Positions 34,447-37,933 of a stretch of DNA of 64,000 bases are shown here, in pieces. Under the pieces are notes generated by a model. It saw nothing but the letters and a program-made list of their open reading frames with translations, was not told where the DNA came from and did not search any database. The position numbers and the translations under genes are program-made. Origin of the DNA: Phycisphaera sp. (GTDB lineage: Bacteria > Planctomycetota > Phycisphaerae > Phycisphaerales > UBA1924); NCBI GenBank assembly GCA_025916675.1, contig CP098402.1, positions 2,909,205-2,973,204 on the forward strand, given 5' to 3'. Positions within the stretch are counted from its first letter, which is position 1. Every line of letters starts with the position of its first letter.

Positions 34447-35841
34447 TTACCCACACCCCGCGTCGAACGCCGTCTGGAACGCCAGGAAGTCGAAGATCGT
34501 GAACTCGCCGTCGCCGTCGAGGTCGGCCTCGCTCCGCCCCGCGTCGAAGGCGTTGAAGAAGGCCAGGAAGTCGAAGATGGTCAGCTCGCCATCGGCGTCG
34601 AGGTCGGCCGGGCATGGGTTGCAAGAGAGGTCGAATAGGTACGCCGCGCCGTCCGCGTCGCCGCTCGATGTTACCTCGTCCAGCGAGGCGACCAGCGCGA
34701 GCCCGCCGTCGATGACCATATCGAAGCCAAAGTTGCCCGTGCGGTCCAGTGGGTTGGGCACCAGCCGCCGCACTTCGCGCCAGGTGCCGTCGGCCCGTTG
34801 CTCGAACTGGAACACGGCCCCGCGGCCCTCGGGCGCGAGCCTGAAGTCGGCCCGCCCCAGCATCACCCCGCCATCGACCAACACTCGCCACCCGAAGCCA
34901 TCGTTGCGCCTCGCGTCGTTCAGGGTGATCCGCTGGTCGAGCACCCACGCCTCGCCGTCGAACCAGTACGCGAAGATGCCACCCTGCGATCGATGCTCGG
35001 GCGCGTATGCCGGCACGCCAACCAGCAGCGACCGCCCGTTGTAGGCGATGTCGGTGCCGAAGCGGCCAAAGAAGTCGGCCATCACCTTCTGGAAGAACGT
35101 GAACGTGCCGTCGCCCTCGCGCTGGTAGATGAAGACCGAACCGCCGCCCGCCGTGATCGTGTCGTCGTCGGGGGCCGCGACGAACAGCCAGTCGTCGTCC
35201 ATCACCATGCGGCGGCCGTAGTCCCACGCGAAGGCCTCCGGCCCGGGCGACAGGGTCTGCACGTGCGCCCACTCGCCAGCCACTAGCCGGTACGCGTACA
35301 CGGCGTCGGGCCGGGTCACCTGGTTCCACACGATCATGCTGTCACCGTGCAGCACAACCCGCTTGCCGAAGTCGGCCTGCACCTCAGCGGGCGGCTCGAT
35401 TCGGGCGGTCTCGACCCACCGCGTGCCGTCGAAGCCATAATCGTAGAGCAAGCCACGCAGCGGCACGCCCCCCGGCACGGTGTGCTTGGGCGCGCCGATG
35501 ATCAGTCTGTTGCCATAAGCGGCCATGCCATAGCCATAATTGTCCCCCAGGCCGATGTCTGGCGGCACGAGCGTCTGGGTGAACTCAAGTTGACCATCGA
35601 CGAGTTCATACACATGCACGGCCCCGGTCGAGCAGGCGAACGTTGAGCCCGGGCACAGCGTCTGAGCAGCGGCATCGGCGACGAACCAATACTGGTCGTT
35701 CGTGGCCACCATGGAACCAAACTTCTCCGGTGGCGTGCCGACTGGTGGCTCTATGCGTTGGGGCACGCAGGGATCCTGGGCGTGGGTCAAGCCCGAGGCG
35801 ATGGCACACAGCAACCACGACGCGATGATGGCGTGCTTCAT
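34447..35841 (-). CDS. Secreted beta-propeller-like protein with paired C-terminal module
   Basis: The 464-residue protein has a signal peptide (about 1-24, SGLTHAQD). Repeating units then alternate Gly/Asp-rich turns and strands typical of FG-GAP/integrin-type propellers (GDNYGYGMAAYGNRLIIGAP, FGKRVVLHGDSMIVW, YGRRMVMDDDWLFVAAPDDD, FGTDIAYNGRSLLVGVPAY). The C-terminus repeats the module seen at 14221 and 30253: CPADLDADGELTIFDFLAF and DLDGDGEFTIFDFLAF, ending DAGCG. Probably cell-surface or extracellular; its ligand is unknown. The ATG at 35841 is chosen over a TTG two codons upstream. It converges with the gene ending at 34357. Confidence 0.85.
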   Translation of the reverse strand: MKHAIIASWLLCAIASGLTHAQDPCVPQRIEPPVGTPPEKFGSMVATNDQYWFVADAAAQTLCPGSTFACSTGAVHVYELVDGQLEFTQTLVPPDIGLGDNYGYGMAAYGNRLIIGAPKHTVPGGVPLRGLLYDYGFDGTRWVETARIEPPAEVQADFGKRVVLHGDSMIVWNQVTRPDAVYAYRLVAGEWAHVQTLSPGPEAFAWDYGRRMVMDDDWLFVAAPDDDTITAGGGSVFIYQREGDGTFTFFQKVMADFFGRFGTDIAYNGRSLLVGVPAYAPEHRSQGGIFAYWFDGEAWVLDQRITLNDARRNDGFGWRVLVDGGVMLGRADFRLAPEGRGAVFQFEQRADGTWREVRRLVPNPLDRTGNFGFDMVIDGGLALVASLDEVTSSGDADGAAYLFDLSCNPCPADLDADGELTIFDFLAFFNAFDAGRSEADLDGDGEFTIFDFLAFQTAFDAGCG

Positions 35842-35894
35842 GCCCAACTATTCCGTCTCACGGCCGACTTGGTTGCAGGCACAGCGTCGCAGAC

Positions 35895-36029
35895 ATGCAC
35901 GACCTGGCGCTGTACAGCGATTGCTACAATGCCGGCAACCCGCGGGCCGACACCGACGCGGACGAGGTGGTCGACGCGATCGACATGCTGAACGATCTGG
36001 ACGCCTACGACAGGGCGACCGGGCCGTAA
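35895..36029 (+). pseudogene. Possible C-terminal remnant of a secreted protein
   Basis: A 44-codon frame reads MHDLALYSDCYNAGNPRADT, then DADEVVDAIDMLNDLDAYDR and a short end. The Asp-rich DTDADEVVDAIDML pattern and the position just before the stop resemble the C-terminal repeat module of the neighbouring secreted proteins, but the rest of such a gene is missing upstream. It is more likely a decay remnant than a functional small gene. Confidence 0.35.
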
Positions 36030-36058
36030 GCGACTCGGACATGGTGAACCACCCCCAC

Positions 36059-36082
36059 GGGCCCGCCAACACGGGCCCTTCT
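36059..36082 (+). terminator. Hairpin terminator after the remnant frame
   Basis: Two copies of the self-complementary GGGCCC (36059-36064, 36073-36078) are separated by eight bases and followed by TTCT. The position 30 bases after the stop at 36029 suits a terminator of the remnant gene. Confidence 0.4.
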
Positions 36083-36226
36083 CATGCCCCTGAGAGCCCC
36101 TCGCGGCCCCCGCGTTCGATGCTTCTCGGGCGTTGGTCCGCGTGCCCACGCGGCTCGGCGACACCCCCCGCGGAGCACACCCCCTGCGGAGCAGCTCGGC
36201 CCGTGGATAACACGAACACGCGGGAA

Positions 36227-36249
36227 CCCGGCCTTGCGGGCCGGCTTTT
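36227..36249 (+). terminator. Intrinsic terminator
   Basis: CCGGCC (36228-36233) pairs with GGCCGG (36239-36244) around a 5-base loop, followed by CTTTTC, a standard stem plus T-run. It lies 40 bases before the tandem-repeat tract and would block read-through from the left. Confidence 0.55.
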
Positions 36250-36288
36250 CGAGAATCCGGACGTTGTGAGATCGCGGGGGAACTCTTG

Positions 36289-36552
36289 GAATTGGAATTC
36301 CAACGGTTACCGCGACAATTTGAACGGCTGCCACGACAATTTCAGCCGTTCCTCTTCGAAGGGGAATCGCTCCCCTTCGAAGGAACACCGTTGCCGATCG
36401 GATTCCAGCCGCTGAAATTGCAATTCCAGCGGTTGCCAATGGAATTTGAGGCGCTGCCAATGCAATTTGAACGGTTCCCCCTCGAAGGGGAATCATTGCC
36501 CATCGATGGGGAGCCGTTCGGGATCGATCCCGAGCCGTTCGCGATCGATGCA
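36289..36552. repeat. Tandem array of twelve 21-bp units
   Basis: From 36289 to 36540 the sequence divides into twelve consecutive 21-base units plus a partial one. Each has a conserved right part close to GAACGGTTG/GAGCCGTTC and a variable, often palindromic left core (CCCATCGATGGG, GGGATCGATCCC, CCTTCGAAGG, GGAATTCC). The units are diverged but the period is exact. In the plus frame they would read as heptapeptides such as PMEFEAL and PIDGEPF, but the frame has no convincing gene around it. Confidence 0.85.
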
Positions 36553-36655
36553 ACCCCCCCAGGAGCGATGATGGACCGTTCCGGAGCGGGGCCGATCCGG
36601 CTGGGGCCAGGCGGGCGTTTCCGGACCCGCCCGGCGGGCCTCTACGCTTGTCGCC

Positions 36656-37933
36656 GTGAACAGCCCAGGCCCAGCAACGATCCCCACCACCCCCACGATC
36701 GCCATCGTCGGTGCCGGCGCGGCGGGGCTGATGGCCGCCATCTCGGCGGGGCGGGCGGTGCGCGATCGGGGTGGCAAAAACCGCATCGTCCTGCTCGATG
36801 GCGCCAACAAGATCGGCGTCAAGATCCTCGTCGCCGGCGGGGGGCGGTGCAACGTGACGCACCACGCCGTCGACGAGAAGCAGTACGCCGGCACGTCGCG
36901 GAACACGATCCGCAAGGTGCTCCGCGCGTTCGGCGTCCAGGACACGGTCGCGTTTTTCGAGGAGTTGGGCGTCACGCTCAAGCGCGAGGGCACTGGCAAG
37001 CTCTTCCCCACCACCGACAAGGCGCAGACCGTGCTCGGCGCGCTGCTGGGCGAGGTCGAGCGGCTGGGTGTCGAACTGGTCCACCCCTGGCGCGTTCGCG
37101 AGGTCGAGCGCGTTGATGGCGGCTTCGTCTTGTCTCGCGCCAACTCGACCGAGACGATGCGCACCGATCGCCTCGTGCTGTGCAGCGGGGGCATGGCACT
37201 CCCGCGCAGCGGCTCGGACGGTGGCGGGTACACCATCGCGCGGGCGTTGGGGCACACGATCACCGAGCGTGTGTTCCCGGCGCTGGTGCCGCTCGTTGTC
37301 GGGCCAGAGTCGGCCTGGCTCACCGAGCTCAGCGGCGTGAGCTGCCGGGCGGGCGTCGAGGTGCGCTCGAGCACCGGCAAGCGGCTCGCACGGTTCGAGA
37401 ACGATTTGCTGTGTACGCACTTCGGCCTGAGCGGGCCGGGGCCGATGGACGCGTCGCGCTACCTGACCGCCGCACGGCACGAGGATCGCAGCGCGACGCT
37501 GTTCATCTGCTGGATCGATGAGCCATTCGAGACCATCGACGCCGCGCTGCAAGGGCTTGGCCAGCGCACTCCACTCGCGTTTGTTCGCGAGCACCTGCCC
37601 GAGCGCCTTGCTTGTGCGTTATGTGTGCGAGCAGGCGTCGATCCCGCATGCCTTGGTAACCAACTTCCGCGCGAGCCGCGCCGCCAGTTGGCGCACCTGC
37701 TGGCGGGTACGCCGATTGAGGTCTCGGGCGATCGCGGCTTCACGCACGCCGAGGTGACCGCCGGGGGCGTGCCGCTCGGCGAGATCAACCCCGCGACGAT
37801 GGCCAGCCGGGCGAGCGAGAATGTATGGCTGGCGGGCGAGATCCTGGATGTCGACGGGCGGATCGGGGGGTTCAACTTCCAATGGGCGTGGGCGAGCGGG
37901 CATGTCGCGGGGCGGAGCGCGGCGGGTGAGTGA
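36656..37933 (+). CDS. HI0933-family flavoprotein (BaiN/YhiN-like oxidoreductase)
   Basis: A 425-residue FAD protein with the dinucleotide site IAIVGAGAAGLMAAISAGRA near the N-terminus, the family motif VKILVAGGGRCNVTH (about 60-75), SGGMALPRSGSDGGGY, THFGLSGPG and the C-terminal ENVWLAGEILDVDGRIGGFN. Members are flavin-dependent reductases of poorly known substrate; one is the bile-acid enzyme BaiN. The GTG at 36656 is the likely start. The 21-bp repeat array lies about 100 bases upstream. The HEAT gene follows 43 bases downstream, with its own ribosome-binding site. Confidence 0.85.
   Translation: MNSPGPATIPTTPTIAIVGAGAAGLMAAISAGRAVRDRGGKNRIVLLDGANKIGVKILVAGGGRCNVTHHAVDEKQYAGTSRNTIRKVLRAFGVQDTVAFFEELGVTLKREGTGKLFPTTDKAQTVLGALLGEVERLGVELVHPWRVREVERVDGGFVLSRANSTETMRTDRLVLCSGGMALPRSGSDGGGYTIARALGHTITERVFPALVPLVVGPESAWLTELSGVSCRAGVEVRSSTGKRLARFENDLLCTHFGLSGPGPMDASRYLTAARHEDRSATLFICWIDEPFETIDAALQGLGQRTPLAFVREHLPERLACALCVRAGVDPACLGNQLPREPRRQLAHLLAGTPIEVSGDRGFTHAEVTAGGVPLGEINPATMASRASENVWLAGEILDVDGRIGGFNFQWAWASGHVAGRSAAGE

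Follow-up and report, generated by a model that had tools for sequence, protein, structure and literature searches.

A dispersed family of 21-bp tandem arrays with an excess of dyads, chiefly from a single genus of Phycisphaerales-like planctomycetes

Several classes of short repeated DNA are known from prokaryotic genomes. REP/BIME elements are short intergenic palindromes which are often clustered and whose sequence is conserved genome-wide. Iterons and partition-site arrays are helically phased tandem sites, the iterons being near-identical copies tied to one cognate protein gene. In Planctomycetota from lakes, intergenic tandem repeats have been linked to noncoding deletions and to slippage, according to the sections of that study drawn on here (PMC9426551). 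The portion used of a survey of prokaryotic satellites describes non-coding tandem arrays that include a few dispersed families, those of Leptospira and Methanocella (PMC6749651). Moreover, Borgs are described, in the part cited, as carrying many sequence-different arrays of tandem repeats per genome that evolve fast and are partly intergenic (PMC9879509). Here we describe an array of 21-bp units in a planctomycete genome. It belongs to a dispersed family of minisatellites that appear to be non-coding and occur for the most part in a single genus of Phycisphaerales-like planctomycetes. No one sequence is common to the members of this family, which are united by a period of exactly 21 bp and, taken together, by an excess of dyad symmetry.

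The array in the window and its leader

The window, by which we mean the whole stretch of 64,000 nucleotides analysed, comes from a genome of 3.62 Mb in a single contig. At 36286-36558 it contains a tandem array of 13 head-to-tail units of 21 bp without any indel, the last unit being only half conserved. This confirms the 21-bp array proposed from the sequence alone, which had been given twelve units. The gapless period-21 segment proper runs from 36296 to 36551 (12.2 units). The array has the best local lag identity in the window for periods of 10-45 (0.67 over 105 bp at lag 21), and the runner-up (0.60 at lag 42) also lies within it. A block-shuffled control of DNA from the genus (20 loci of 20 kb) gave zero hits at the threshold used.

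The features of the locus are collected in Table 1. The numbers of complementary pairs out of nine in units 1-13 were 8, 2, 4, 8, 5, 3, 8, 3, 4, 8, 7, 8 and 3, and the good palindromes include CCCATCGATGGG, GGGATCGATCCC, CTTCGAAG and TTGGAATTCCAA. Between units 11 and 12, CCC/GGG is replaced by GGG/CCC, which amounts to three matched changes per arm together with one change mending a fourth pair. Palindromy exceeded that of a position-permuted null (p = 0.002). Halves of the same unit also paired better than halves of different units (p = 0.003 for 11 units and p = 0.0007 for 13, the latter value being generous, since duplicated units do not count as independent and the palindromes were what had drawn attention to this array beforehand). 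The palindromic cores described in the sequence-only reading are therefore borne out by the array as a whole, the cores being more palindromic than those of shuffled units, but only six of the 13 units are good palindromes. The near-constant right half described there did not hold, with one of the 21 columns (position 2) invariant over the 13 units. A CRISPR array, in which a constant repeat would alternate with unique spacers, was rejected on the same count.

Table 1. Coordinates of features in and around the array of the window.
Feature	Coordinates	Strand	Remarks
Gene for FG-GAP repeat protein with GC-type dockerin domain	34447..35847	-	Flanks the array
Gene-end fragment	35895..36029	+	Resembles the ends of genes adjoining the L053 and L056 arrays
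Upstream leader	36029..36285	+	Partly similar to leaders at L053, L055 and L056 in the same genome
Terminator-like hairpin GGGCCCG-CCAACA-CGGGCCC	36059..36078	+	Within the leader; conserved in four paralogous loci
Unit layout of the array			Two 9-nt arms (positions 1-9 pairing with 18-10) about a central step, then a 3-nt spacer (19-21)
Unit 1 palindrome TTGGAATTGGAATTCCAA	36286..36303	.	8/9 pairs
Unit 4 palindrome around CTTCGAAG	36349..36366	.	8/9 pairs
Unit 7 palindrome CTGAAATTGCAATTCCAG	36412..36429	.	8/9 pairs
Palindromes of units 10-12	36475..36534	.	8, 7 and 8 of 9 pairs
Gene for HI0933-like / TIGR00275 FAD-binding enzyme	36656..37933	+	Flanks the array

Of the two flanking genes, the one for the FAD enzyme has its seven best named relatives in Phycisphaerales genomes from metagenomes (55-63% identity), and the host is accordingly very probably a phycisphaeral planctomycete. 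Two 81-bp tandem copies lie at 34456-34609, in the dockerin-like end of the FG-GAP gene. The gene-end fragment is followed by the terminator-like hairpin and then by the array. Pieces of the leader are dispersed, intergenic and frequently close to 21-bp arrays: a query taken from a paralogous locus (L053:1720-1950, including the first 9 bases of the array there) had 28 matches in the same genome, with the GGGCCCG...CGGGCCC hairpin, and pieces were also matched in the six other genomes of the genus. A 21-bp array (score of at least 34, within the 3 kb fetched) was present at only 16 of 30 leader loci, one locus with a run of N (L193) not being counted, and a shared leader is thus an insufficient explanation of the arrays.

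Related arrays in the genus and beyond

A DNA search of the array's own genome returned arrays of other sequence, and a covariance model built from palindromic units (R1) found further arrays within the genus. There are at least 44 such arrays in the genus, a count which excludes the weak L101 (score 23.3) and L133 (score 27.9). Thirty nine arrays were studied in detail, among them one from another genus (L073) and not L015 or L068. Four loci in the genus to which the model pointed (L054, L063, L075 and L079) had no array on fetching.

To avoid circularity, a sample was taken at even steps along contigs of known length from five genomes of the genus (1.26 Mb including the window) and scanned for periods of 10-69. 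This gave 27 hits, 15 labelled intergenic and 12 labelled coding or half-coding. Eleven of the 15 intergenic hits (10/14 without the window) had a period of 21, 42 or 63 (7, 3 and 1 hits respectively), the other four having periods of 14, 16, 18 and 18, against a single one of the 12 coding or half-coding hits (L128, with a period of 42 and units of 21 bp). Three of the 11 were previously known, namely the window's array, L108 (= L081) and L120 (= L067). The two period-18 hits and one of period 21 (L127:16628) may be coding, as their sequence looks Gly-rich and Pro/Ala-rich respectively.

No tandem array of this kind was found in the 200 kb scanned of G002, nor by the period scan of G021, which is of the same family. 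A genome of the same order (G051) gave one hit with a period of 43. From another six genomes of the family (400 kb) came five hits with periods of 42, 42, 15, 66 and 10, where both of the 42s (G012) look coding. Among six loci outside the genus fetched on the strength of the covariance model, one held a real array (L073, in G012) and four held none (L074, L077, L082 and L083); the sixth (L076) was discarded because of its position within a gene, but is still counted in the half-linkage test below. Lastly, a named Phycisphaerae metagenome-assembled genome from a lake contains a 21-bp dyad array of six units at a contig end (L236:2-124, dyad p = 0.034), the only 21-bp array taken as non-coding among 80 loci totalling 458 kb. 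Together with L073, it shows that such arrays also occur outside the genus.

The gene for the FAD enzyme is present in six of seven genomes of the genus, and the orthologous loci differ in what lies upstream of it. In G001 the enzyme gene is immediately preceded by a 21-bp array (L087) whose cores include CGCAGGCCTGCG and CGCACTAGTGCG, and beyond it is an FG-GAP gene of 37% identity. The sequence of this array is unrelated to that in the window (best E 0.57). One orthologous locus therefore keeps the period and the dyads in unrelated sequence. At the other four (G003, G004, G005 and G006), the whole of which were scanned, the array is absent, so that the conservation of the period in relatives, named earlier as a check, was seen at one of the five orthologous loci read. 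In G005 the FG-GAP and FAD enzyme genes are divergent as in the window and less than 100 bp apart with no array between them (L086:2750-2815); the loci fetched from G003, G004 and G006 contain no FG-GAP match. Likewise, the gene for a Fur-family regulator has an upstream array in four of seven species (L057, L058, L065 and L069) and none in three. On reading, the left border is similar in all four and the right border in three, the units have changed, and the number of units is 8, 15, 12 and 11. From its absence at four of five orthologous FAD loci and three of seven Fur-type loci, as well as from the 200 kb of G002, the element is dispensable at any one locus. At two loci of G001 (L087 and L186), the array together with some 70 bp of upstream sequence is 87% identical, and arrays are thus copied within a genome.

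Thirty two of the 39 arrays have both neighbouring genes called without overlap, and these lie between co-directional (22), divergent (6) and convergent genes (4), the background of gaps of at least 250 bp being 90, 56 and 13 respectively. Five of the remaining seven lack a called neighbour and two overlap a called gene (L059 and L128). Counted from the gaps, 17 of the 22 co-directional arrays are closer to the 3' end of the upstream gene than to the next start, the window's array being among the five exceptions; four of the 22 are the orthologous Fur-type loci. In G006 (L149:8269-8630) telomere-like 7-bp words (CCCTAAT) occur in the first part of a 21-bp array, which then gives way to another unit family. 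In G004 (L123:55-272) a 21-bp array has a higher-order period of 63 bp, with units partly alternating as reverse complements.

Head-to-tail units of this length in non-coding DNA fall within the definition of bacterial minisatellites (10-100 bp). The proposal that the array is a minisatellite under selection, or bias, for dyads is supported, since the exact period and the dyad excess recur in dozens of arrays and at one orthologous locus of unrelated sequence. REP/BIME elements were rejected, there being 15 similarity components among the 39 arrays in place of a palindrome conserved genome-wide.

Symmetry and unit length across the arrays

Dyad symmetry was assessed in 25 arrays chosen by period, orthology or leader, arrays known only through the covariance model being left out (L081 and L120 = L067 were first met with the model, but also occur in the period scan). 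The dyad score was above the position-permuted null (Fisher, p = 1.7e-12; 2.8e-11 without the window). Individually, dyads were significant in 10 of the 25, above the null mean non-significantly in 12 and below it in three (L149, L183 and L189). The 12 arrays from the period scan or from orthology gave the same result (Fisher, p = 1.8e-8; 5e-7 without the window). Linkage between the halves of a unit was found over 24 arrays (Fisher, p = 1e-4), a set that includes L076 and arrays found with the palindrome model, against none across the joint between units in the same arrays (p = 0.32). This half linkage may partly reflect the descent of units by duplication. L116, L149 and two arrays in L154 were used in both dyad tests, L101 in the 25-array test only and L133 in neither.

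The fraction of complementary pairs in the 22 arrays with an even dyad was, from the centre outwards, 0.71, 0.49, 0.48, 0.68, 0.68, 0.53, 0.51, 0.62 and 0.55; in the 17 with an odd dyad the innermost value was 0.51. With its low second and third pairs the even profile is compatible with a loop, whilst the innermost value of 0.71 suits a duplex dyad.

The 39 arrays comprise 443 units and 9304 bp, and neighbouring units are on average 68.6% identical, which corresponds to about 2622 differences. Phase breaks were sought in the arrays and in 150 bp either side of each. A local match of at least 9 positions at lag 20 or 22 was seen in three of the 39 (L062, L183 and L205). At the other lags between 16 and 26, L185 and L073 each exceeded 20 matching positions at lag 17, and the remaining arrays reached at most 16. 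One array (L191) has a strong signal at lag 42 and no local signal at lag 21. In contrast, 12 pairwise alignments of non-coding flanks contain 87 gap openings per 448 mismatches, made up of 73/352 among four paralogous leaders and 14/96 among four Fur-type flanks, where three of the six pairs are gapless. The contrast in gaps between arrays and flanks is large, although it is not a like-for-like rate, because the segments were defined as gapless and a comparison of flanks differs in kind from one of neighbouring units. Near-absent phase shifts beside gapped flanks point to a length ruler.

Similarity searches divided the 39 arrays into 15 components, one of which has 18 members joined by weak links, and 57 of 741 pairs matched at E 1e-3. 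Common descent therefore accounts for part of the sharing, and length has been kept far better than sequence. A/T favours positions 2, 7, 12 and 17 of the unit over the 39 arrays, those found with the model included. The 5.25-bp harmonic that matches these positions is raised in the 25 arrays (Fisher, p = 8e-5, 7/25; 7e-4 without the window). The 10.5-bp roll harmonic is not raised (0.021 against a null of 0.033), which gives no support to intrinsic curvature. The suggestion that every core faces the same side of the DNA follows arithmetically from 21 bp being two helical turns; it agrees with the ruler, but is not accompanied by a raised bending signal.

Possible origins of the arrays and comparison with known systems

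Twenty one base pairs are also seven codons, and a translated heptapeptide repeat (e.g. LPIDGEP/FPLEGES) would give both the period and the absence of indels. At least one of the six frames is open in 37 of the 39 arrays, the + frame of the window's array being open from a TTG at 36286, and the two arrays that overlap a called gene also lean this way. However, codon positions did not differ in variability over the 39 arrays (Fisher, p = 0.74; 2/39 below 0.05), in what is a weak test, as only four of eight coding-like controls gave the contrast. GC period-3 power was 0.067 in arrays against 0.169 in flanks, codon log-odds of the scan hits with periods that are multiples of 21 lay between -0.45 and 0.38, and in two arrays (L058 and L065) stops interrupt every one of the six frames. 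We therefore regard a coding repeat as very improbable, and with the codon reading unsupported by these tests two helical turns of duplex DNA are the simplest remaining ruler. Tandem RNA hairpins 3' of genes, which would end or protect transcripts, are a better candidate, albeit an improbable one. They would explain why most co-directional arrays sit nearer the end of the upstream gene, and the window's array does fold better than shuffles on both RNA strands (z = -6.7 and -5.7). Its DNA strand also folds strongly (z = -6.7), and folding of this kind is expected of any palindromic array. Against the RNA reading, both strands fold well and there is no excess of G·U on the sense strand (193 GT versus 218 AC over 22 arrays, 10 arrays versus 11). 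The window's array had no match in Rfam at the gathering threshold, an RNA role needs no 21-nt spacing, and the bias towards 3' ends may come solely from terminators needing less room than promoters (promoter avoidance). Least credible is a set of specific sites for one replication or partition protein, as in iterons or centromere-like arrays. The sites are indeed tandem, phased and palindromic, but dozens of sequence-different arrays adjoin unrelated genes. In the strict sense the earlier label of iteron-like is not supported: units are not copies of one near-identical site (mean neighbour identity 0.69 over the 39 arrays, with differing cores), arrays within one genome differ, and it is the FG-GAP/dockerin and FAD enzyme genes, with no replication or partition gene, that adjoin the window's array. 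The sequence-only reading as a whole is partly supported.

This leaves two explanations of greater weight. A neutral or selfish satellite is a plausible one, if short of even odds, and almost on a par with the reading that we prefer: hairpin DNA would promote slippage, template switching would perfect the palindromes and copying would spread the arrays, all without a function. The folding of the window's array far beyond shuffles on the RNA and DNA strands argues for it, as do the near-copy in the same genome (L186/L087, 87%), differences between species in whether an array is present, even where the neighbouring genes are the same, and the second and third dyad pairs, whose low complementarity leaves room for a loop. 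Template switching has been reported to create and repair stems, at least in the passages cited (PMC8794818), and the lake Planctomycetota repeats tied to noncoding deletions, as far as the cited sections describe them (PMC9426551), are of a similar bearing. A satellite of this sort accounts for the dyads and the dispersal, but gives no reason why arrays of 15 sequence groups have the identical length of 21 bp or why phase shifts are almost absent. Our preferred reading, to which we give a probability of roughly 0.38, is that the minisatellites of this dispersed family are under a constraint on the geometry of the duplex, perhaps as a scaffold for a hypothetical dimeric protein. It is favoured because a fixed 21-bp spacing in sequence-different arrays asks for a ruler and because dyads suit a dimer that binds duplex DNA.

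Under such a scaffold the constraint would act on the geometry of double-stranded DNA. With two helical turns per unit every dyad would lie on the same side of the DNA, a register that any indel would destroy. As to a putative function, the likeliest would be that of a platform on which a DNA-binding protein lands. This protein would be dimeric or oligomerising, perhaps nucleoid-associated or insulating, and would be guided less by the bases than by symmetry and spacing. Meanwhile, the sequences of the units could turn over through slippage and unequal exchange, and segments consisting of an array and some leader may be copied to new loci. A broader claim, which we consider unlikely on balance, is that the arrays represent a new class of bacterial DNA element specified by geometry, with two helical turns per unit, dyads on one face and sequence left free, which a putative protein would read as sequence-independent chromosomal landmarks. 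If the ruler is helical phasing, the arrays would exemplify selection in nature for the shape and spacing of DNA, and the way in which bacterial chromatin proteins read DNA could be tested on them in a tractable manner. Should the ruler be mutational instead, it would be no less surprising for replication to measure out 21 nt.

Minisatellites normally form families by sequence, whereas the family described here is recognisable mainly through unit length and symmetry. It resembles REP/BIME elements in consisting of short intergenic palindromes, but has no sequence conserved genome-wide. With iterons it has helically phased tandem sites in common, although its units are not near-identical copies. 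Among the best matches in the open-licence literature searched there was no report of a length-defined 21-bp dyad family, and the part cited of a survey of DNA-structure patterns (PMC4060949) contains no such family. The lake Planctomycetota repeats are alike in phylum and in being intergenic and tandem; no period, dyads or independence of sequence are given in the sections of that study used here (PMC9426551). The dispersed families in the survey of prokaryotic satellites are defined by sequence in the portion cited (PMC6749651), whereas the 21-bp arrays share length and symmetry. The nearest parallel for many sequence-different arrays is provided by the Borg repeats (PMC9879509), on the part of that work considered here. 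However, Borg units are described there as perfect copies, with only 14-38% of intergenic unit lengths divisible by three, whereas the units of the present arrays are degenerate and fixed at 21 bp.
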